37,861 nt of DNA from a bacterium (GCA_028719205.1 JAQUKH010000026.1:1-37861); one strand, 5' to 3'; positions 9,280 to 27,972 are shown, numbered from the stretch's first letter. Numbers and translations are program-made. The notes: generated by a model not told the origin, from the sequence alone.

Positions 9280-9311
9280 AAAAACGGAAAGGCTAAAAAG
9301 GAACAATTAAA

Positions 9312-10289
9312 ATGAAAAGAAAAAAGATTATATTATCGATAATATTTATTTTAATATTCGAACCTTTAGCCTTTATTTATGCTCAATCCAGGGTGACAGG
9401 TTCAGCAGAAGAAGCGTCAATCCGTGATGGAAGAAAACCGGTAAAGCTCTTAAAAATGTTTGGACAGGGCCAGTTTAATTCAATTAATAATATTTATGTT
9501 TCGCCTAAGGGCATAATTTATATTTCTGACGCAAGTGATTGTACCGTAAAGGCTTTTAATATGCGCAATGAATTTTTATTCAGTTTCGGACAGGTATCAG
9601 GATCTAAACTCCAAAGCATTATGGAACTCAGCTCGGATAATGACGGTAATGTTTATGTGGCGGATTATGATCAGGATCTTGTTAATGTTTATAATTCTAA
9701 CGGGAAATATCTTTTTAATATTAAACCGGAAACTGAAATGCAGAAAAAACTTAAGGGCAGAGGAGTTTCCGGTATGGCGGTTAACAGCAGGAGAGATATT
9801 TATATTGCTGACAGCGCGAACGGGCGTATTGAGGTCCGGGATATTAATTTAAAGTACAAATATCAGATAGATATATTTAAAAATAAAGACGGAAAAAAGC
9901 TGGAGCTTATTTCACCGGCTCATCCAAGGATAAACAGCCATGATGAGCTTTATGTTATAGACCCATTGATCAGTAGTGTTCATTGTTTTGACGCGAGAGG
10001 CAATTATTTAAGCAGTTTCGGGACATATTTATCCGCGCCTTCAGGTTTGGCTATTGACAGGTATGACAGGGTATATGTTATAGATATGAGATTCTGTGCT
10101 GTGCTGATCTATGACAGGGAAGGAAAATTTTTATACGCGTTAAGCGATGAAAACGGGAAAGAAATTTATTTACCTTATCCGACCGGTTTGGCAGTAGATA
10201 ATAATGGTTATATTTACGTAGGTTGTAATGACGGAGGCTGGGGTGTTAAGGTTTTTAAATATATACCGGCATGGGGGGAAGGGAAATGA
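9312..10289 (+). CDS. Secreted NHL-repeat (six-bladed beta-propeller) protein
   Basis: The 325-residue protein has a signal peptide (ILSIIFILIFEPLAFIYA) and repeated NHL-like blades: GIIYISDASDCTVKAFN, GNVYVADYDQDLVNVYN, RDIYIADSANGRIEVRD, DELYVIDPLISSVHCFD, DRVYVIDMRFCAVLIYD and GYIYVGCND. Six blades close a propeller that usually binds proteins or ligands. An AAGGA ribosome site precedes the ATG at 9312. Its stop overlaps the ATG of the multihaem-ankyrin gene (ATGA at 10286-10289), so the two are made together; NHL proteins are often found beside multihaem cytochromes. No enzyme motif is visible. Confidence 0.85.
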   Translation: MKRKKIILSIIFILIFEPLAFIYAQSRVTGSAEEASIRDGRKPVKLLKMFGQGQFNSINNIYVSPKGIIYISDASDCTVKAFNMRNEFLFSFGQVSGSKLQSIMELSSDNDGNVYVADYDQDLVNVYNSNGKYLFNIKPETEMQKKLKGRGVSGMAVNSRRDIYIADSANGRIEVRDINLKYKYQIDIFKNKDGKKLELISPAHPRINSHDELYVIDPLISSVHCFDARGNYLSSFGTYLSAPSGLAIDRYDRVYVIDMRFCAVLIYDREGKFLYALSDENGKEIYLPYPTGLAVDNNGYIYVGCNDGGWGVKVFKYIPAWGEGK

Positions 10290-13198
10290 TATATAAAAAG
10301 AGAGGTATTTATCTTCCCGTTTTATTTTGTTTGATATTTTTATCAGGGATAAACAACGTTTACGCGGAAATAATTAACAGCCCGCATGACTTAATTGCAT
10401 GGTTCAATTATTCTACCGTCAGTTCAGGGCAAACAGGGATATGCAGTTTTTGTCATTATCCGAGTGGAGGCGGCGCGCATTTTTTTGTTAATGGAAGAGG
10501 AAGTGATACAGCTAAAATATACGGAATAGTTGCTGAAATGTGCTGGAAATGCCATGGAAATAATCTATATCTGGGCAGGAATGAACCTGTGGTTTATAAC
10601 GAAATTTTTAAAACTATGGACAAAGATCACGCGCCTTTGGATTCACATCCAGTCAGGGGGATAAGTTCCAAAAGTAAGCCTGAAGTATTAAAAAATACTT
10701 ATATCCCGGCAAAGCTGGATTGGCCATGGACGGAAGGCTGGGACAGCGGAAGGGCGGATAGAGATATAGAATGTACTACCTGCCATAATGTTCACGAATG
10801 GAATTCAAAATGGGATACTCCTGACGGAAAGAGAAAATTTTTAAGGGCTCCGGTTTATTATGAATCAGCGGGTATCGGATATGATTTCTGTGTAAACTGC
10901 CACTTTAACAGGGAGAGTGACACAGCAAAAAACAATATAGGGCATCCTGTAGGACTGAACGCGAAATTTTCAAATTCCACAACCGGTATAATAATGAAAG
11001 ATACTACGGGTATGATAAGGTTATACAAAGATGATGTAATCATCTGCCGGACATGTCATATAACTCATGGCGCGGGAAATAACAAAAATGCTGATTTATG
11101 TGATAGATGCCATATTAAAGAGTCTATCCGGGGAAAAGATATATTATTTACTAAACAATTAGCTCATTCGTCAGATTATAATTCAACATTAATTTTAAAT
11201 GATAACGGGATACAAAAAGTCAAACCGTTGGAACTGAATTGGGAATTGCTGAACGCGTCCCGGGAAGGTAACATTGAAGCCGTAAAAACATTATTGGAGA
11301 AAGGTGCTGATGTAAACTCGAAAGATAAAGATGGAAATACTATTTTACATCGCGCGGTTTGGAGCGGCAACAGCGATATGGTAAAGGTCCTGCTGGACAA
11401 GGGCGCGGATATGAAGGCGCGGGACGAAGATGGAGAAACAGCATTATTGAACGCGGCCGGGATGGAGTTTAAAGCGGATATAGTGAAAATTTTGCTGGAT
11501 AGGGGCGCTGATATTAATATAAAGAACAAATATGGCAGAAATGTTCTTATGTTCGTGGCAGGAAAAAATAATAATGATATATTAAAAACTTTACTGGCCA
11601 AAGGCGCGGATGTAAATGAGACAGATAGTAATGGAGCTACCGCTTTGTTTTACGCGGCTTCGAGCGGCAATGCTGATACTATAAAAATATTATTGGAAAA
11701 AGGCGCGGATATAAACGCGAAAGATAAAAACAAAGTTACAGCTTTAATGCTTGCGGCAAAAAGGAGTAATATTGATGTTGTAAAAGTTTTACTTGATAAC
11801 GGCGCGGTTATGAACGCGAGAGATGATGATGGAGCTACAGCCATACTGTCCGCCGCTGATAATAGAGATCAAAAAGATAATAATATCCAGATCGTGAAAA
11901 TGCTGCTGGAAAAAGGCGCGGATATAAACATAAAAAGTAATGATGGTAAAACTGTTCTTATGTGCGCGGTCCAAAGAGGGTATACTGACCTGGTTAAAGT
12001 TTTGCTTGAAAAAGGCGCGGATGTAAACGCGGAAGACAGTATTGGAGCTACTGTTTTATTCCATGCTGTTTGGAACGGGGGAATTGATATAGTCCGGATC
12101 TTAATAGAAAAAGGAGCGAATGTAAACGCGCAAAATAATAACGGAGTGACTGTTTTAATGCGCGCTATTGAATCGGGACATACCGATATAGCGAAAATAT
12201 TACTGGCCAAAGGCGCGAGTGTGAATATAAAAGATAATAACGGAGCTACTGTTTTATTACACGCGTCCTGGAACGGTAATATTGATATGATAAAAATATT
12301 ACTTGGTAAAGGCGTGGATGTAAATTTAAAAGATAAAAACGGGGTAACAGCTTTATTAAACGCGTCTTTTAAGGGTGAAACTGAGGTGGTTAAAATCTTA
12401 TTGGATAATGGCGCGGATATAAAAGCTAAAGGTAAAGACGGATTCACGGCCCTGTTATACGCGACAAAAAGGGGTAATACCGATACTATGAAAGTTTTGC
12501 TCGCCAAGGGCGCGGATTTTAATATAGCTAACAGTGAAGGGAAAAATATTTTAATGTACGCGTCAGAAATGGGTTATACGGATATTGTAAAAACCTTATT
12601 GGAAAAAGGCGCTGATGTGAACGCGAAAGATAAATACGGCGTTACGGCTTTAATGCTTGCTTCAGAAAGCGGTTATAATGATATAGTGAAAATTTTACTG
12701 GAAAAAGGAGCGCAGGATAAGGCAAAAAATAAGAATGAAAATACAGCCTTGTTGAGCGCGGTTGAAACCGGCAATATCGATATTATGAAAGCCTTACTGG
12801 AGAAAAACGCTGATGTGAATATAAAAGATAAAAATGAAGTAACTATTTTAATGCGCGCGGTTGAAAGCGGCAATATAGATATTGTGAACTCTTTACTGGA
12901 AAAAGGCGCGGATATTAACGCTAAAGATAAAGACAGCGTTACGGCTTTGCTGCTCGCGGTTGAAAGGATCTATGATGATATTATGGAAGCTTTACTGAAA
13001 AAAGGCGCTGATGTAAACGCGAAAGATAAAGACGGAGTGACTGTTTTAATGCGCGCGGCTGACAGGGGAAAAATTAATACGGTTAGGTCCTTGCTTGAAA
13101 AAGGCGCGGATATGAAAGCAAAAGATAAAAACGGTTTAACGGCTTTTAATTACGCGGAAAACAGGCATGATAGCGATATTATGAAAATATTGAGATGA
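10286..13198 (+). CDS. Secreted six-haem c-type cytochrome fused to about 20 ankyrin repeats
   Basis: The 970-residue protein starts with a signal peptide (YLPVLFCLIFLSGINNVYA). The first 290 residues hold six CxxCH haem-c sites, with first cysteines at residues 53, 86, 163, 202, 254 and 272 (CSFCH, CWKCH, CTTCH, CVNCH, CRTCH, CDRCH), resembling doubled-CXXCH/NapC-like cytochromes. From residue about 316 to the end come 19 full ankyrin repeats of about 33 residues plus a partial cap, mostly ending KGADVNAKDKDG-like. Haem attachment requires export, so the ankyrin arm should also lie outside the cytoplasm. The start at 10286 is chosen for the GGGGAAGGGA ribosome site and the ATGA overlap with the NHL gene. 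The redox partner and ankyrin target are unknown. Confidence 0.9.
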   Translation: MIYKKRGIYLPVLFCLIFLSGINNVYAEIINSPHDLIAWFNYSTVSSGQTGICSFCHYPSGGGAHFFVNGRGSDTAKIYGIVAEMCWKCHGNNLYLGRNEPVVYNEIFKTMDKDHAPLDSHPVRGISSKSKPEVLKNTYIPAKLDWPWTEGWDSGRADRDIECTTCHNVHEWNSKWDTPDGKRKFLRAPVYYESAGIGYDFCVNCHFNRESDTAKNNIGHPVGLNAKFSNSTTGIIMKDTTGMIRLYKDDVIICRTCHITHGAGNNKNADLCDRCHIKESIRGKDILFTKQLAHSSDYNSTLILNDNGIQKVKPLELNWELLNASREGNIEAVKTLLEKGADVNSKDKDGNTILHRAVWSGNSDMVKVLLDKGADMKARDEDGETALLNAAGMEFKADIVKILLDRGADINIKNKYGRNVLMFVAGKNNNDILKTLLAKGADVNETDSNGATALFYAASSGNADTIKILLEKGADINAKDKNKVTALMLAAKRSNIDVVKVLLDNGAVMNARDDDGATAILSAADNRDQKDNNIQIVKMLLEKGADINIKSNDGKTVLMCAVQRGYTDLVKVLLEKGADVNAEDSIGATVLFHAVWNGGIDIVRILIEKGANVNAQNNNGVTVLMRAIESGHTDIAKILLAKGASVNIKDNNGATVLLHASWNGNIDMIKILLGKGVDVNLKDKNGVTALLNASFKGETEVVKILLDNGADIKAKGKDGFTALLYATKRGNTDTMKVLLAKGADFNIANSEGKNILMYASEMGYTDIVKTLLEKGADVNAKDKYGVTALMLASESGYNDIVKILLEKGAQDKAKNKNENTALLSAVETGNIDIMKALLEKNADVNIKDKNEVTILMRAVESGNIDIVNSLLEKGADINAKDKDSVTALLLAVERIYDDIMEALLKKGADVNAKDKDGVTVLMRAADRGKINTVRSLLEKGADMKAKDKNGLTAFNYAENRHDSDIMKILR
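11231..13195 (+). repeat. Ankyrin-coding repeat array, 99-base period with a 198-base higher order in part
   Basis: About 20 tandem units of roughly 99 bases, each with a GGCGCGGATGTAAACGCG-like core. Units 9 and 11 resemble each other (ATVLFHAVWNG and ATVLLHASWNG) and begin exactly 198 bases apart (GCT at 12047 and 12245), showing that two-repeat blocks were duplicated. The array is a likely substrate for recombination with the second array at 13.6-15.9 kb. Confidence 0.85.
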
Positions 13199-13201
13199 AA
13201 T

Positions 13202-13510
13202 ATGAGTCAAAATAAAAAAATCTGCAATCAATGCGGGAAATGCTGCGAAGGGGCATTTTTTCTTATTGATGATGCCTACACGGAAGGCGGATTAGACCAT
13301 CTTGAATGGGCGCGGAACCACGGCCTGAAGACCGTCTTCAGGGAAAATTCCGAAGGGAAAAGGCTTTGGGGAATAGAACTGGATACGCCCTGTAAATATT
13401 TGCAAAAAAGCGCGGACGGGAAATCGTTTTGCGCGATCTATGAAAACCGCCCCAAAATGTGCAGGATCTACACCGGAGAAAAAGAATTTCCTGATTGCGG
13501 ATATAAATGA
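13202..13510 (+). CDS. YkgJ-like Cys-cluster protein (putative zinc/iron-chelating domain)
   Basis: This 102-residue protein has the family cysteine pattern CNQCGKCC (Cys8, 11, 14, 15), then CKYL, FCAIYENRPKMCRIY and a final DCGYK, as in the YkgJ/UPF0153 family. These proteins probably bind a metal; their role is not established. The gene begins three bases after the cytochrome-ankyrin stop, with no strong ribosome site, so it is probably translated by coupling. Its last 35 bases recur at 17132-17166, beyond the ankyrin-serpin gene, with one synonymous change. Confidence 0.82.
   Translation: MSQNKKICNQCGKCCEGAFFLIDDAYTEGGLDHLEWARNHGLKTVFRENSEGKRLWGIELDTPCKYLQKSADGKSFCAIYENRPKMCRIYTGEKEFPDCGYK
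13476..13510 (+). repeat. Left copy of a 35-base direct repeat (3' end of the YkgJ-like gene)
   Basis: The bases encoding the last 11 codons and stop (ending EKEFPDCGYK) match 17132-17166 at 34 of 35 positions. The only difference is CCT versus CCA, both proline. A weaker match (CAC then C or T, then G) continues just upstream. Confidence 0.85.
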
Positions 13511-13548: not shown

Positions 13549-16500
13549 ATGAAATTTTCGAATAAAAACTTATTGCTTTTAAATGGTATAGTTTTATTGA
13601 TTTTATGTTTACATTCGTATTCAACGGCTATAGAGTTTAACTCTGGTTTAATATCCGCGGCGGAAAAAGGTGATATTAATACAGTTAAGCAGTTGTTAGA
13701 TCAAGGCGCGGATATAAACGTGAAAGACAGGAATGGTATTACCGCTTTGATAACAGCGGTATGGAATAGTTATACAGAGATAGTAAAGCTGCTGTTAGAA
13801 AAAGGCGCGGATGTGAACGCGAAAGATGATTATGGCCGGACTGTTCTGATGAAAGCGGTTGAGGATGGAAATATAGAGATAATAAAACTGTTAATGGATA
13901 AAGGCGCGGATATAAACAAAAAAGATATAGATGGAAATACTGCTTTGATATTAGCGGGAAGTTTTAATCGCCTGGAAGCAGTAACACTGCTGCTGGAAAA
14001 AAACGCTGATATTAATATTAAAAATGACGAAGGTTTCACAGCCTTTACATGGGCGTCTGAAGGAGGTTATATAGAAATAGTAAAGGAATTGCTGGAAAAA
14101 GGCGCGGATGTGAATGCGAAAACAAAGGATGGTTTTACTCCTCTTATGTTCGCGGCACGGGAGAGCCATATAGAGGTATTAAAGTTATTGCTGGATAAAA
14201 AAGCGGATGTGAACGTACAGGCAAAAAAAACCGGATTTACAGCGCTGATGTTAGCGGAAGAAAATGGTTTTAATGAGGGAGTAAAACTGCTGTTGGAAAA
14301 AAGCGCTAATGTAAATGCTAGAGATAATGCCGGTGTCACTGCCTTGATGAAAGCGGCAGAGAAAGGGAGTACAGAAATAGTAAAGTTACTGTTGGAAAAA
14401 GGCGCGGATGTAAACGCCAAAGATAATAGCAGTGTCACAGTTTTAATAAAAACGACAGAGAGCGGGAGTGCGGAAATAGTGAAATTACTGCTGGAAAAAG
14501 ATGCGGATGTAAATGTAAAAACAAAAGATGGCGGTTTTACCGCTTTGATGGAAGCGGCAAAGAAAGGCCAAATAGATATAGTACAGCTTCTACTGGAAAA
14601 AGGCGCTCATGTAAACACAAAAGCAGATAATGGTCTTGCTACCGCTCTGATCTACGCGGAAAAAAATGGCAACAAAAAAATAGTAAAATTGCTTAAAGAA
14701 GCGGGAGCCGCGGAGGCTAGTGCCAATAACCCCCCTGATCTAATATCCGCGGCGGAAAAAAATGATATAAAAACAGTTAAGCAGTTGTTAGATAAAGGCG
14801 CGGATGTAAATGTGAAAGATAAATATGGTTTCAATGTTTTGATAAAAGAGGCGGGGAGCGGTCATACGGAAATCGTAAAATTATTATTGGAAAAAGGCGC
14901 GGTTGTAAACGCGAAAACAAAAGGCGGCTATACTGCCCTGATGGCGGCGGCAGAGCAGTATAATAATACTGAGATCTTAAAAATGCTGCTGGATAAAGGC
15001 GCTATTATAAACGCGAAAACGGATAAAGGCGATAACGCTTTAATATACGCGGCAAGAGAGGGGCACACGGAAATAGTAAAAATATTACTGGCCAAGGGAG
15101 CGGATCTACACGCGAAAGACAAATATGGCCGTACCGTTCTGATGGAAGTGACAGATAGGGGTTATAAAGATATATTAAGGTCATTGGAGAATAAAGGAAC
15201 GGATATGACATCTGATATTACTGCTTTGGTGAACTCGGAATGGAATAACTACATGCAAATAGTAGAAATATTGTTGGATAAAGGCTTGGAGGTTAACGCG
15301 AAAACAAATTCCGGTTTTACCGCTCTGATGGGAGCGGCAAGGAATAGTAATAAGGAGATAGTAAAACTATTACTGCGTAAAGGAGCGGATGTAAACGCGA
15401 AAGATAAGGAAGGAAAAAATGTTTTGATGTCCGCGCTGGGCCGTGAGGGAAGCCGGACAGAAATAGTAAAATTATTACTGGATAAGGGTGCTGATGTGAA
15501 TGATTTAAAGAAAGAAGATTTCACGGCCTTTATATGGGCGTCTGAAGAAGGTTATATGGAAATAGTAAAGAAAATGCTGGCAAAAGGCGTGGATGTGAAT
15601 GTAAAAACAAATGACGGCTTCACTGCTTTGATGAAAGCGGCAGAGAAGGGGCGTACAGAAATAGTAAAACTGTTGTTGGAAAAAGGCGCGGATGTAAACA
15701 CGAAAAAAGATGACGGCCTTACTACCGCTCTTATGTACGCAAAGGAGCATGGGCACGAAAATATAGTAAAAATGCTAAAAGACGCCGGAGCTGAAGAAAC
15801 TATTGTTAATAGCGGCCCGGATTTAACATCCTTGAAGGAAAAAGGTGATATAAATAAAGAAGAACTGGTTCCGGCAAAAGCCGCGGTTATAAACGCGAAA
15901 GACACAGAGGACACTAACGCTCTGATAATTCCGAAAGTATTGGAGGAAGAAAATGTTGATATTAAGGTTCTGGCTGAAGGAAATAATACCTTTGCTGTTA
16001 ATTTATATAACCGGCTCAAAATTCAGGATGGGAATTTATTTTATTCTCCTTATAGTATTTCAACCCTGCTTGCCATGGTTTATGCCGGCGCCCGCGGAAA
16101 TACTGAGAAACAGATAGCTGAAACTTTATCCTTTCCATTTAACCGTGAACAATTTCATCCGGTTTTTGCGGGCATCATGAAGGAGTTGGGCGCGGCGCGA
16201 GGAGATAACAAAATGGAACTAAGGATGTCCAATGGCCTCTGGGTACAGAAGGATCATGTTTTTCTTAAAGAATATCTCGATTTAAATAAAATGTATTATG
16301 ATGCTGAACCGTACAATGTGGATTTCAGGAATAATGGCGAAATAGCCCGCCTGAAGATCAATAAGTGGGTGGAAGATGGAACGAAAAATAAAATTAAGCA
16401 TTTAGTCCCGCCTGGAATGATCAATTCTAATACAAAATTTATTTTAACCAACGCTGTTTATTTTAAAGCCGGATGGCTGCGCAGGTTTGGGAAAAATATT

Positions 16501-17118
16501 ACAAAGGATGCACCCTTCAAACTTCCTTCAGGAAAAAATATAAATGTGAAAATGATGTCCGGGTACGGAGAATATGAATATGGAGAAAATAATAATTTAC
16601 AAATTTTAGAAATGCCTTATAAAGACAGTGATATATCAATGATCGTATTACTGCCAAAAAAATATGATGGTTTAATGGAGACAGAAAAAATAATAAATGA
16701 TGCAAATATTAAAGAATGGATAAGTTCTCTGGAAAAGAAAGACGTGAATGTTTTATTACCGAAATTTAAAATAACTTCCAGCTTTAACCTTTCACAGTTT
16801 CTTATTTTAATGGGAATGAGTGACGCGTTCAATTTATATAAAGCTGATTTTTCAGGGATAGCGGATTTTTCTAAAATGGATAGTACAAATAACTTATTTA
16901 TATCAGAAGTAATTCACAAAGCCTTTATAGATGTAAATGAAGAAGGTGCTGTTGCCGGAGCCGCGACTTACGCGGATATGACGGAAGGAGGTATATCCAA
17001 AGATGCACCGGTTTTCAGAGCGGACCGTCCGTTTATATTCCTGATACGCGATAATTGGTCGGGAAACATTTTATTTTTAGGCAGAGTAACTGACCCAAAT
17101 GTTTTTTTAGAAGAGTAA
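13549..17118 (+). CDS. Secreted ankyrin-repeat protein with a complete C-terminal serpin domain
   Basis: The 1189-residue protein has a signal peptide (LLLLNGIVLLILCLHSYSTA). Residues 33-757 hold 22 ankyrin repeats in two related 11-repeat blocks (33-396 and 397-757). A degenerate start of a third block follows (758 to about 805). Residues about 812-1189 are a full-length serpin: SPYSISTLLAMVYAGARGNT, LTNAVYFKAGW, and the C-terminal RPFIFLIRD and ILFLGRVTDP. The reactive loop hinge EEGAVAGAAT (about 1131-1140) keeps Gly at P15 and small residues at P12-P9, as in inhibitory serpins. The target protease cannot be read, because the loop (TYADMTEGGISKDAP) is a few residues longer than in alpha-1-antitrypsin. 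The gene lies between two copies of the YkgJ-like 3' end. Confidence 0.9.
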   Translation: MKFSNKNLLLLNGIVLLILCLHSYSTAIEFNSGLISAAEKGDINTVKQLLDQGADINVKDRNGITALITAVWNSYTEIVKLLLEKGADVNAKDDYGRTVLMKAVEDGNIEIIKLLMDKGADINKKDIDGNTALILAGSFNRLEAVTLLLEKNADINIKNDEGFTAFTWASEGGYIEIVKELLEKGADVNAKTKDGFTPLMFAARESHIEVLKLLLDKKADVNVQAKKTGFTALMLAEENGFNEGVKLLLEKSANVNARDNAGVTALMKAAEKGSTEIVKLLLEKGADVNAKDNSSVTVLIKTTESGSAEIVKLLLEKDADVNVKTKDGGFTALMEAAKKGQIDIVQLLLEKGAHVNTKADNGLATALIYAEKNGNKKIVKLLKEAGAAEASANNPPDLISAAEKNDIKTVKQLLDKGADVNVKDKYGFNVLIKEAGSGHTEIVKLLLEKGAVVNAKTKGGYTALMAAAEQYNNTEILKMLLDKGAIINAKTDKGDNALIYAAREGHTEIVKILLAKGADLHAKDKYGRTVLMEVTDRGYKDILRSLENKGTDMTSDITALVNSEWNNYMQIVEILLDKGLEVNAKTNSGFTALMGAARNSNKEIVKLLLRKGADVNAKDKEGKNVLMSALGREGSRTEIVKLLLDKGADVNDLKKEDFTAFIWASEEGYMEIVKKMLAKGVDVNVKTNDGFTALMKAAEKGRTEIVKLLLEKGADVNTKKDDGLTTALMYAKEHGHENIVKMLKDAGAEETIVNSGPDLTSLKEKGDINKEELVPAKAAVINAKDTEDTNALIIPKVLEEENVDIKVLAEGNNTFAVNLYNRLKIQDGNLFYSPYSISTLLAMVYAGARGNTEKQIAETLSFPFNREQFHPVFAGIMKELGAARGDNKMELRMSNGLWVQKDHVFLKEYLDLNKMYYDAEPYNVDFRNNGEIARLKINKWVEDGTKNKIKHLVPPGMINSNTKFILTNAVYFKAGWLRRFGKNITKDAPFKLPSGKNINVKMMSGYGEYEYGENNNLQILEMPYKDSDISMIVLLPKKYDGLMETEKIINDANIKEWISSLEKKDVNVLLPKFKITSSFNLSQFLILMGMSDAFNLYKADFSGIADFSKMDSTNNLFISEVIHKAFIDVNEEGAVAGAATYADMTEGGISKDAPVFRADRPFIFLIRDNWSGNILFLGRVTDPNVFLEE
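13645..15972 (+). repeat. Ankyrin-coding array built of two 11-repeat blocks plus a degenerate third
   Basis: Block starts are recognisable as GLISAAEKGDI (residue 33), PDLISAAEKNDI (Asp397) and PDLTSLKEKGDI (Asp758). Block ends are NGLATALIYAEKNGNKKIVK and DGLTTALMYAKEHGHENIVK. FTAFTWASEGGYIEIVK in block 1 pairs with FTAFIWASEEGYMEIVK in block 2, so a block of about 363 codons was duplicated, apart from the 33-codon period. Confidence 0.8.
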
Positions 17119-17131
17119 GCATGAGCACTGA

Positions 17132-17166
17132 GAGAAAAAGAATTTCCAGATTGCGGATATAAATGA
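17132..17166 (+). repeat. Right copy of the YkgJ 3'-end direct repeat, non-coding remnant
   Basis: This short stretch between the serpin gene and recN still reads EKEFPDCGYK-stop but has no gene body in front of it. See 13476-13510 for the coding copy. Confidence 0.85.
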
Positions 17167-17178
17167 TAAAATACAGCT

Positions 17179-18846
17179 ATGTTATCCCAGCTTAAAATAC
17201 AAAATTTCGGATTGATAGATTCGCTTGCGATAGATTTCTCGGATAAATTAAATATATTTACGGGAGAGACCGGCGCGGGGAAATCTATTCTTATTGACGC
17301 GCTGCGTTTTTCACTGGGGGAACGTTTAGACAGTTCCCAGGTTCGTGACGCGGATAAGCCCTGTGCCGTTGAATCCGTTTTTGAACTTACGGATAAATTT
17401 CTTAAAGAGACACCTGCTTTTTCTGAATATATTTCCGATGAGGACCCGCTTCTTATTATAAACCGCACGTATCTTCCTGACGGCCGCAACAGGATCAAAA
17501 TAAACGGATTTAACATAACGGTTTCGCAGTTAAAAGAGATCGGCAATCATCTTGTTGATTTTCACGGGGCGAACGACCACCAGATGATCCTGGCGGAGGA
17601 ATCGCACATAAAGATCATCGACAGGCTTTCTGACCTTGCAGCGGAAAAAGATGAATATGCCAAAAAATATGCCGGATATTTAAATCTGCAAAAAGAACTG
17701 GATGAATTGCGGGCTTCTTCAAAGAACCGTGAGCAGGACGAACAGCTTCTAAAACATCAGATAACGGAACTGGAACAGGTTACGCTTGATGAAGCTAACT
17801 ACAGGAATATTCTGGAAGAACGCGCCCGCATGAATAATTCCGAAAAATTATACGAACACGCCGGTGAACTGGTTAAGATCTTTGAAGATGAAGAAACCGG
17901 CCTGGATAAACTGATCACGCAGGCGTTCGGCCCGATGAAGGCATTGAATAATCTGGATAAGGGAACAATTAATTTTATGGAAGTACTTAAAAATATGCAG
18001 GAAGAGGCACAAGGATTATCGCACGATCTTTCCAATTACCTTGACAGTCTTTCCTTTAACCCTGATAAAACAAAAAATATAAATTCGCAGTATGATTCCT
18101 ATTATGAAATATTAAGAAAATACGGCCCGGCATTGGAGGACGCGGAAAAAATATACGAGTCGGCGAAGAAAAAATATGAATTGTTAGTAAATCTGGAATA
18201 TAACGATTCAAAATTAAAAGAAGAAATACAGGCACTTCGGAACGAACTGAAAAAGATCGCGGATAAAATAACAGCGAAACGCAATAAAACATCAAAATTT
18301 TTAAAAGAAACAATTGAAAAAGAATTAAAAGAACTGGGCATTAAAAATATCCAATTTGAAGCAAGGATCGATAAGATTGATTTTACCGATAAAGGGCAGG
18401 ACAGGGTTGTTTTTTACATGAGCCCGAATATCGGCGAGGAATTAAAACCTCTGGCGCAGATAGTCTCGGGCGGAGAGTCGGCAAGAGTGATGCTCGCTAT
18501 AAAAAAAGCGTTGACCAAAGTAGACCCGATCCCGGTTCTCGTTTTTGACGAGATAGACGCGCAGATCGGAGGCCGGCTTGGGGACATCACAGGCAAAAAA
18601 CTCAAAGAGCTTTCGGACAACCGACAGGTAATACTTATTACGCACCTTCCACAGATCGCCGCGTTTTCCGACCATCATTTCAAAGTCACAAAAAAAGTTA
18701 AAGACAACCGCACGATAATAAACGTGGACCTCCTTGATAAAACCGCTCGCGTGGAGGAATTGGCGAAAATGATGAGCGGGGAGAAAGAATCTCCGATCGC
18801 GTTGAAGCACGCGAGAGAGATGCTTGGGAGAGTGGAAAATGGATAA
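17179..18846 (+). CDS. recN: DNA repair protein RecN
   Basis: This 555-residue SMC-like ATPase acts in recombinational repair of double-strand breaks in the cytoplasm. Walker A is TGETGAGKS (residues 28-36) within the RecN-typical LNIFTGETGAGKSILIDAL. A coiled-coil region spans about 165-370. The ABC signature IVSGGESARVMLAIKKAL and Walker B VLVFDEIDAQIGG are followed by VILITHLPQIAAFSDHHF. The length matches the family. No good ribosome site is visible before the ATG at 17179, just 12 bases after the YkgJ remnant. The stop overlaps the next gene by 8 bases. Confidence 0.94.
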   Translation: MLSQLKIQNFGLIDSLAIDFSDKLNIFTGETGAGKSILIDALRFSLGERLDSSQVRDADKPCAVESVFELTDKFLKETPAFSEYISDEDPLLIINRTYLPDGRNRIKINGFNITVSQLKEIGNHLVDFHGANDHQMILAEESHIKIIDRLSDLAAEKDEYAKKYAGYLNLQKELDELRASSKNREQDEQLLKHQITELEQVTLDEANYRNILEERARMNNSEKLYEHAGELVKIFEDEETGLDKLITQAFGPMKALNNLDKGTINFMEVLKNMQEEAQGLSHDLSNYLDSLSFNPDKTKNINSQYDSYYEILRKYGPALEDAEKIYESAKKKYELLVNLEYNDSKLKEEIQALRNELKKIADKITAKRNKTSKFLKETIEKELKELGIKNIQFEARIDKIDFTDKGQDRVVFYMSPNIGEELKPLAQIVSGGESARVMLAIKKALTKVDPIPVLVFDEIDAQIGGRLGDITGKKLKELSDNRQVILITHLPQIAAFSDHHFKVTKKVKDNRTIINVDLLDKTARVEELAKMMSGEKESPIALKHAREMLGRVENG

Positions 18847-21951: not shown

Positions 21952-22171
21952 AATGAACATATCAAGAAAAATAAAAATATTAATGAGTTTAATGATAAAA
22001 TATTATTCAGGCTGTTTATAACAACCCTAAAAGAGAGAAAACCGACTGGCAGTCACCTTTTGTAAAAGATGGTGAAGTAAATGTTGACGCGTATATCGAT
22101 TTCGTTCAGGATTCATAAACTACGCGCCGCGGCCATTCAGAAAAATTATTGATAAAGACATGAAATTGTAA
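21952..22171 (+). pseudogene. Decayed small gene broken by two frameshifts
   Basis: Three reading frames must be joined to read one plausible short protein: NEHIKKNKNINEFNDKILF from 21952, then YNNPKREKTDWQSPFVKDG and VNVDAYIDFVQ from 22017, then [19 protein letters not shown] to the stop at 22169-22171. The join shows frameshifts near 22017 and 22112. The charged, compact sequence looks like a real protein of about 70 residues; I do not recognise a named family. It ends directly before the ribosome site of the subtilase gene. Confidence 0.5.
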
Positions 22172-22187
22172 AAAAATGGAGGTTAAA

Positions 22188-23354
22188 ATGAAAATAAAAA
22201 ATGGCGGATTAATTTGTATCCTGTTTTTTGCGATATTATCAGCAGGATTTTCTAATGTTTTCGCTGAAAACACTTTAAGGAAAATTGTTGTGTTTAAAAA
22301 AGGTTTTTCAGACACTTTAAAACAAACGAAACTTGTTGAAGGTTTAAAAGGGATCAAAATAAAAAACCTGAAACTGATCAACGCGATGGCGGTGGAATTA
22401 TCATCAAGCGCGGAAAAAGAGGTCTTAAAGAGGCCTGAAGTTGAAAGAATTGATGAAGACATAATTATTTACACTAGCGGGAAACCTTCTAAACCGCCTA
22501 GTCCACAGCCGGCGGAAGTTTTGCCATGGGGTGTCGACAGGATAAATGCTGAAATGACCTGGAGTATAACAACCGGTTCAGGTATTAAAGTTGCGATCGT
22601 GGATACTGGTATTTTTTTAAATCACCCTGACCTTGTTAATAATATAAAAGGAAATGTTAATACGATTAATCCGGCAAAAGGTGGTAATGATGATAACGGT
22701 CACGGAACACACGTCGCAGGTATAGTTGCCGCAATGGACAATAGCTTTGGTGTAATTGGTGTCGGGCCGAATATCAGCCTTTACGCGGTAAAGGTTTTGG
22801 GCAAGAACGGTACAGGCTGGCTTTCTGATATCATTGAAGGCCTTGACTGGTGCATCAATAACGGGATCAATGTTGTAAATATGAGCCTCGGTTCATCCGG
22901 TGGGAACCAGTCATATCATGACGCGATAATAAGGGCTTATCAGGCGAGGATTGTTCTGGTTGCCGCGAGCGGTAATGAAGGCGGCCCGGTAAGTTATCCT
23001 GCCGTGTATCCCGAAGTTATCGCGGTTGCCGCGACGGATGGATCGGACAATATTGCGAGCTGGTCAAATAGAGGGCCGGAAGTGGACCTGGCCGCGCCCG
23101 GAGTAAATATTTACTCAACATATAAGGACGGTTTTTATAAAACTTTAAGCGGAACAAGCATGGCTTCCCCTCATGTCGCGGGGGCCGCGGCTCTTGTTTT
23201 AACCAGTCCTGTTGGCGCGTACGACGCTAATTTAAACGGAAAATGGGATCCGCTTGAAGTCATGAATAAACTAAAAGACAACGCCGAGAATCTCGGTTTT
23301 TCAACGGACCTGCAGGGTGCAGGATTAGTCAGGCCTGATCTGGCGATAGAATAA
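22188..23354 (+). CDS. Secreted subtilisin-like serine protease (S8) with I9-type propeptide
   Basis: The 388-residue protein has a signal peptide ([19 protein letters not shown]), an inhibitor-I9-like propeptide (about 28-100, [11 protein letters not shown] to VERIDEDI) that would fold and silence the protease, and an S8 catalytic domain. The triad is Asp139 (AIVDTG), His172 (GHGTHVAG) and Ser324 ([11 protein letters not shown]). The oxyanion region is [19 protein letters not shown] at 22178-22182 precedes ATG 22188; an ATG at 22176 in the same frame overlaps that ribosome site. The enzyme should be exported and self-activated. It lies about 5 kb from the secreted serpin, but no link is shown. 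Confidence 0.92.
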
Positions 23355-23362
23355 GGTGAAAT

Positions 23363-23524
23363 ATGAATAATGACGGCATGATACGTAAAGAAGTAGGGCA
23401 TTATAAAAAAGTATCCCCACTGAAAAAGGCCTTTGAATTAAATAAAATGCTGGAAGAACTTCGCGGTAAAAGGGTTGATACAAAAAATGAAAACATTCGA
23501 AAAGTTGTTGGAAAAGTTAAGTGA
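23363..23524 (+). CDS. Small charged protein of unknown function
   Basis: A 53-codon ORF begins 8 bases after the subtilase stop, with AAGGTG at 23353-23358 as possible ribosome site. The product is basic and helical in appearance (SPLKKAFELNKMLEELRGKR, then NIRKVVGKVK), with no signal peptide or cysteines. It could be the tail of the subtilase operon or a remnant. I do not recognise it. Confidence 0.4.
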   Translation: MNNDGMIRKEVGHYKKVSPLKKAFELNKMLEELRGKRVDTKNENIRKVVGKVK

Positions 23525-23560
23525 AAATAAAATAAATATTGGTTATTATTTAACGAAAAT

Positions 23561-27467: not shown

Positions 27468-27511
27468 TCCATTTTGCTAATTGCGACAGATTTTCTTTAA
27501 TAATCCCCCAA

Positions 27512-27972
27512 ATGAAATCCAAATACAACCCCGATGTACATCACAGGAAATCATCGATGGATTTCAAATAATGCCGAACCATATTCATGGGATTATTATG
27601 ATTAATGTAGGGGCGCAATTCATTGCGCCCTGCCAATCGGTAATTAAACAACAGGGCGGTAAAAATCAGGGCGTGATGAATCACGCCCCTACAATTGGGG
27701 AAATTGTACGTTCGTTTAAGGCACGATGTACCCGTGCGATTAACAAAATTCATAATAATATAGATATACCTGTTTGGCAGCGAAATTATTACGAACACAT
27801 AATCCGCAATGAAATTGAATTAAATTCCATCCGGGAATATATTGTAAATAATCCATTGAAATGGCCGGATGATGAAAATAATCCGGATAACATTATGAAA
27901 TATTATCCGGTTTTAGTGGTAAAATATATAAAAATATTTAATATCACCTGCAGAAAAAATAACAGAAATTAA
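27512..27972 (+). pseudogene. Internally deleted, frameshifted RAYT transposase
   Basis: The typical RAYT N-terminus reads from ATG 27512 (MKSKYNPDVHHRKS), then the frame is lost. From about 27553 another frame continues IDGFQIMPNHIHGIIMI, the HUH segment. About 50-60 residues between the two parts (the VTICT strand region in the first RAYT) are missing. The rest is intact: an in-frame REP pair (27607-27692), PVWQRNYYEHIIRNEIELNS with the catalytic Tyr, then YIVNNPLKW. The C-terminal tail is longer than usual. It is open from 27481 in the downstream frame, but that start is not genuine. Without the N-terminal strands it is probably inactive. Confidence 0.8.
27607..27692. repeat. Two inverted REP hairpins inside the second RAYT frame
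   Basis: Left 27607-27630: GTAG head, arms GGGCGCAAT and ATTGCGCCC. Right 27669-27692 inverted: arms GGGCGTGAT and ATCACGCCC, then the complementary CTAC head. Reverse-complementing the right copy, the 24-mers differ at four positions that form two compensating pairs. The spacer is 38 bases. The insert lies at the same protein position as in the first RAYT, again reading V-G-A. Confidence 0.85.

Follow-up and report, generated by a model that had tools for sequence, protein, structure and literature searches.

What does a bacterium do with a serpin that is tethered to a long array of ankyrin repeats? To our knowledge, the targets of bacterial serpins are mostly unknown, and most of the bacterial serpins seen in this analysis consist of a serpin domain on its own, preceded by a signal peptide. 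The window analysed here, a 37,861-nucleotide stretch of bacterial DNA, comes from an organism of a little-sampled phylum, of which four genomes including this one were compared. It contains a gene that the initial annotation read as an exported fusion of 22 ankyrin repeats with a complete serpin carrying an inhibitory-type hinge. The locus raises the linked questions of whether the two parts form one gene, how unusual their combination is, whether the serpin is likely to trap a protease, and which proteases it may meet.

Results

A complete serpin joined to 22 ankyrin repeats

The fusion is encoded by a single open frame with no internal stop (Table 1). Pfam ankyrin matches cover aa 34-750 of the 1189-aa protein, and an iterated profile built in this analysis counts exactly 22 repeats, from aa 34-59 to aa 726-748, all of them supported by independent E-values of ~1e-10 or better. 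The repeats fall into two blocks that are 53% identical to each other; the opening repeat (ISAAEKxDIxTVKQLLD) and the closing, capping one (LKxAGAxE) are common to both. Paired helices run along the whole ankyrin part of the predicted model, and the repeats recur in tandem every 33 residues. The Pfam Serpin family (PF00079) matches aa 811-1183 over model positions 2-370 of 370, scoring 387 bits (cut-off 27) with an E of 9.9e-116. The AlphaFold model of this part has a pLDDT of 89.4 and a pTM of 0.89, and its best Foldseek match is antithrombin (1jvq, TM 0.90). Among PDB sequences, the bacterial serpin chloropin matches best (8gxv, E 2e-82), and 46 of the 48 core sites that are at least 90% conserved among relatives are retained. 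By every family test run here, the domain is a member of the serpin superfamily (PF00079, MEROPS I4). Besides the ankyrin and serpin families, the Pfam scan of the protein returned only weak matches to repeat-rich models, and no dockerin.

Table 1. Features of the ankyrin-serpin gene, its flanks and related genes, in window coordinates
Feature	Position	Strand	Basis or remark
Ankyrin-serpin fusion gene, 1189 aa	13549..17118	+	open frame; Pfam Ank families and Serpin
Signal-peptide-like N-terminus, aa 1-27, MKFSNKNLLLLNGIVLLILCLHSYSTA	13549..13629	+	read by eye; contig C9 paralog starts similarly
Ankyrin block 1, 11 repeats, aa 34-387	13648..14709	+	iterated profile search
Ankyrin block 2, 11 repeats, aa 398-748	14740..15792	+	iterated profile search
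Linker, aa 752-802, ~50 aa, predicted disordered (pLDDT <50)	15802..15954	+	model
Complete serpin domain, aa 811-1183	15979..17097	+	Pfam PF00079; AlphaFold; Foldseek
Reactive-centre loop	16939..17013	+	alignment of relatives; loop pLDDT <50, uninserted in model
CxxCxxCC (putative zinc/iron-chelating) protein, left flank	13202..13510	+	84.7% nt identity in G001
RecN/SMC-type ATPase, right flank	17179..18846	+	G001 orthologue directly after CxxCxxCC gene
35-bp direct repeat, left copy, 3' end (last codons) of CxxCxxCC gene	13476..13510	+	
35-bp direct repeat, right copy, just past serpin stop	17132..17166	+	34/35 identical to left
Multihaem CxxCH cytochrome fused to 20 ankyrin repeats, signal-like start, upstream neighbour	10271..13198	+	
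S8 subtilase, complete Asp-His-Ser triad, signal-like start, candidate target	22176..23354	+	sequence

Read by eye, the N-terminus has a Lys-containing start, a long hydrophobic stretch and STA ahead of the mature start. It looks like a Sec signal peptide, in line with the export proposed in the initial annotation, and we infer that the protein is probably exported. Many relatives' serpins also begin with a signal-peptide-like sequence.

Repeat arrays misassemble easily, and no other serpin occurs in the four phylum genomes compared; an ankyrin gene might thus have been joined to an unrelated serpin gene by chimeric assembly or contamination. We regard this as highly improbable. The reading frame is open over the join, the linker opens with a decayed copy of the start of a third ankyrin block, PDLTSLKEKGDINKEEL, and the codon usage of the serpin fits that of the neighbouring genes. 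In addition, the left and right flanks are syntenic with a single contig (C31) of the sister genome G001. Since the two flanks are adjacent there, both sides of the fusion belong to the same stretch of chromosome. Each of these observations argues against separate genes, the case that had been named as fatal to the original reading, and, within what can be judged from sequence, a single gene encodes the ankyrin repeats and the serpin.

The fusion gene is absent from the sister genome

G001 is the only sampled sister species, and the contrasts drawn with it are between two genomes of one genus. On contig C31 the CxxCxxCC gene is followed immediately by recN, with no ankyrin-serpin gene between them. 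The 35-bp direct repeat that brackets the gene here is present as a single copy in G001, and the two copies listed in Table 1 are the only ones in the whole present genome. The ankyrin-serpin gene is therefore part of a clean presence/absence difference, a 3656-bp unit found here and missing from G001. The same trace would be left by an insertion here that duplicated the repeat and by recombination between two repeats that looped the unit out of the sister genome; we favour a gain here, since none of the other three phylum genomes compared has a serpin.

The 35-bp repeat was considered as the end of a mobile element and rejected, as it occurs at only two places in the genome and no inverted repeats were found at the edges. 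Promoter and terminator scans at the locus gave results no better than shuffles. Elsewhere in the window, two IS200-type (Y1) transposase-like ORFs were seen (1628-2209 and 27481-27972). A gene with HTH and SocA/Panacea domains, resembling an antitoxin, is followed by a 126-aa ORF without a Pfam family (together 476-1631), which is possibly an undescribed toxin partner. The G001 orthologue (L087) of the upstream ankyrin-cytochrome gene is shorter, with 5 detected repeats. Furthermore, between the alpha-2-macroglobulin and CxxCxxCC genes of G001, a 66-bp stretch (L093, reverse complement 11553-11618) resembles the start of an NHL-repeat gene (window 9312; aligned 9310-9375), as if the locus had been rearranged in both genomes.

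Origin and rarity of the fusion

A paralog on contig C9 of the same genome has a signal-like start and the same two-block ankyrin layout, with blocks 52-58% identical to those of the ankyrin-serpin, and carries no serpin. The simplest history would be that a two-block ankyrin protein was duplicated and that a serpin was captured at the C-terminal end. Judged from its relatives, the serpin is of bacterial type. These relatives are 27-51% identical and spread over many phyla, the closest being from bacterium STD1_36 (L002, 51% over the domain), Anaerolineales (49%) and Thermoflexia (48%). In a quick tree the place of the window serpin among mixed phyla was unresolved. Composition gives no ground for claiming a recent horizontal transfer: although the AT content of the serpin is slightly above that of the ankyrin part, its codons are used as in resident genes.

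That such a fusion would be unusual among bacterial serpins had been suggested at the outset, and a search for the architecture bears this out. None of the 73 relative loci carries ankyrin in the serpin frame. Of ~80 serpins in the genomes of 48 relatives, nearly all lie in frames below 600 aa; the two longest frames outside the 73 loci (792 and 695 aa) are without ankyrin, and no fusion is evident in the set. Viral contigs yielded no ankyrin-serpin fusion, and the annotated plasmid matches, among those listed, are named plain 'serpin family protein'. A full-text literature search returned no description of such a fusion, and in the two papers that mention both, serpins and ankyrins are separate genes. 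One genome alone thus carries the fusion, a rarity that refers to what was searched and not to nature at large.

A different elaboration was seen in one relative, Spirochaetota bacterium bin100 (CP070841; L024:5866-7620), where a Hint-type (intein-like) domain of ~150 aa (Pfam PT-HINT, E 2.6e-15) lies inside the serpin reactive-centre loop, directly after a canonical hinge (EEGTEAAAATKVEVG/C...VHN/KG). Self-cleavage or splicing of this domain could create, destroy or switch the serpin loop.

A locally altered hinge in the reactive-centre loop

Alignment with relatives places the predicted P1-P1' at Gly1147-Gly1148, a pair that points to no clear target class. The hinge reads E1131-E-G-A-V-A-G-A-A-T (P17-P8), with Tyr at P7, and the loop as a whole is EEGAVAGAATYADMTEG/GISKDAPVFRADRPF as against EEGTEAAAATAV in typical relatives. 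It matches GTEAAAAT at 5 of 8 positions, the lowest of the 77 sequences compared, with changes at P14 (T/S to A), P13 (E to V), P11 (A to G) and P7 (A to Y). As the other core sites are conserved, the change is local.

Loop insertion turns P14, P12, P10 and P8 inward. Here these residues are Ala, Ala, Ala and Thr, all of them small, and P13 Val, P11 Gly and P7 Tyr, which make up most of the striking changes, sit at outward positions. The published consensus for inhibitory hinges is E[EKR]G[TS]x[AGS]4 over P17-P9 (PMC2770083). Set against it, EEG-A-V-AGAA fits E[EKR]G at P17-P15 and [AGS]4 at P12-P9 (A, G, A, A), leaving Ala for Thr/Ser at P14 as the sole misfit and placing the hinge outside the strict inhibitory consensus. 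In Drosophilids, whose consensus at this position tells inhibitory serpins from non-inhibitory ones, T, S or G is permitted at P14, and one hinge change can abolish the inhibitory mechanism (PMC2770083). We do not file the protein as a proven inhibitory serpin because this one defining hinge position departs from the consensus.

The description of the hinge as inhibitory-type is therefore upheld in part: Gly or small residues do occupy all insertion positions, but with Ala at P14 and the lowest match of the 77 sequences the designation is probable and not established. Structure prediction, which had been proposed as a check, leaves the reactive loop free, flexible and uninserted in the model (loop pLDDT <50). 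Taken together, these features make protease inhibition by the serpin domain likely but not assured.

Contrasting protease-inhibitor families in two sister species

The present genome encodes a single serpin and two S8 subtilases but no alpha-2-macroglobulin, whereas G001 has no serpin, three alpha-2-macroglobulins and no S8 subtilase. One of the G001 alpha-2-macroglobulin genes ends ~80 bp before the CxxCxxCC gene of the ankyrin-serpin locus. With the present genome 92.7% complete, the absence of alpha-2-macroglobulin from it is probable, not certain. The more distant phylum genome G003 has neither inhibitor. Substitution of a serpin for alpha-2-macroglobulin between the sister species is a fair reading of this pattern, seen in two genomes of one genus; of the clues to function, this contrast within the genus is the most suggestive.

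The subtilase of the window is missing from the syntenic place in G001, which has no S8 match anywhere, and two more distant phylum genomes have 2 and 9 subtilase matches and no serpin. The flanks of the window subtilase (22046-23539) align to G001, which carries a RelB/VapC-like toxin-antitoxin pair (by eye) in its place. The second subtilase of the present genome (contig C24, L113:3455-6985) is a 1176-aa frame in which inspection by eye shows repeats of propeller-like and PKD-like character and a C-terminus resembling a dockerin, DINDDAIVNGEDLILLAADFGR.

Discussion

We consider it fairly probable that the ankyrin-serpin is an exported, ankyrin-tethered protease trap that acts in the periplasm or at the cell surface. 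In this model, a resident two-block ankyrin protein of this lineage gained a bacterial serpin domain at its C-terminus, and the serpin would now hang by a flexible linker of ~50 residues from the tip of an extended ankyrin solenoid. A protease would cut the exposed loop near Gly1147-Gly1148, whereupon the loop would insert into beta-sheet A, carry the protease across and trap it covalently, and the ankyrin arm would keep it attached to a partner protein or surface. The ankyrin-serpin may in this way take the protease-trapping role of the sister species' alpha-2-macroglobulins.

The main alternative to a trap is that the serpin fold has drifted, is no longer inhibitory and now serves at the end of the ankyrin arm either as a cleavable bait or as a stable module for structure or binding. 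The hinge would fit such a drift, being the least canonical of those compared within an otherwise conserved core, and its P14 residue lies outside not only the T/S of the general consensus but also the wider T/S/G of the Drosophilids (PMC2770083). However, a charged or bulky residue is found at none of the inward positions, and the conserved core residues of the serpin are still in place. A hydrophobic P13 is also tolerated in an engineered serpin: alpha-1-antitrypsins with changed P13-P8, one of them with Ile at P13, retain SDS-stable complex formation, although altered hinges can increase the stoichiometry of inhibition, with a value of 12.7 in one engineered variant (PMC7946950). On this evidence we judge a non-inhibitory role unlikely, and a working trap remains our preferred reading.

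Two finer versions of the trap reading differ in the proteases that would be met. Defence against outside proteases, from bacteria, predators or eukaryotic hosts, with the ankyrin arm anchoring the inhibitor near the cell, is a plausible version that we hold tentatively. It draws on the export-type start and on the occurrence of the serpin in place of alpha-2-macroglobulins, which have been proposed to meet foreign proteases (PMC4498604); likewise, serpins of sponge and coral symbionts have been read as a defence against outside proteases (PMC7848895; PMC9296628). Conversely, ankyrin arrays of the same genome are also fused to a multihaem cytochrome, which suggests a general periplasmic or surface use and not that of a host effector. 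The other version makes the serpin a guard against the cell's own secreted subtilase, as the initial annotation suggested for that of the window; the subtilase on contig C24 would be a further candidate, and PinA is proposed to act in such a way for the cellulosome. The triad of the window subtilase is intact and its start signal-like, G001 lacks subtilases as well as a serpin where the present genome has both, and the bacterial serpins PinA and miropin are described as inhibitors of subtilisins (PMC8201313). Against this, subtilases occur without a serpin in two distant phylum genomes, which gives no support to a strict guard role; the serpin and subtilase genes are ~5 kb apart with no obvious shared operon, and the Gly-Gly loop offers no tie to the specificity of the window subtilase. 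We regard the guard role as weakly supported and unlikely.

By analogy, the ankyrin-serpin would work most like PinA of Clostridium thermocellum, as a trap carried by a docking module, each being a bacterial modular serpin that such a module would place on a partner assembly. In PinA the docking module is a cellulosome dockerin; here, 22 ankyrin repeats would take that part. The ankyrin repeats replace a cellulosome module on an otherwise known modular-serpin theme. PinA is described, in PMC8201313 citing Cuiv 2013, as an inhibitor of subtilisin-like proteases and a proposed protector of the cellulosome from endogenous and exogenous proteases. Chloropin of Chlorobium limicola, the closest solved sequence, is a secreted inhibitory bacterial serpin with Arg at P1 (PMC10090351); it differs from the present protein, with its predicted P1 Gly, and the solved protein is the serpin domain alone, with no ankyrin. 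The serpin of STD1_36, highest in identity over the domain, shares the signal-like start, but stands alone and has the canonical hinge GTEAAAAT. Bacterial alpha-2-macroglobulins of the E. coli ECAM type are also large protease traps, but of an unrelated fold, with a bait and thioester mechanism and no homology to serpins. Finally, the ankyrin proteins encoded on contigs C9 and C5 of the same genome, together with the upstream ankyrin-cytochrome, have the same kind of array and a signal-like start, and lack the serpin.

A more far-reaching proposal is that the sister species have exchanged alpha-2-macroglobulin for a serpin, built as a solenoid-guided trap through the gain of a resident ankyrin arm that sets where or on what the serpin acts. 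We would call this doubtful in its full form. If it is true, the protein would be a case, beyond the cellulosome, of a bacterial serpin that carries its own module for protein recognition. The contrast of serpin and alpha-2-macroglobulin within one genus makes the interchangeability of unrelated traps testable, and a serpin with its own putative recognition arm, together with the empty site in the sister genome, provides a concrete case for how bacteria aim protease inhibitors.
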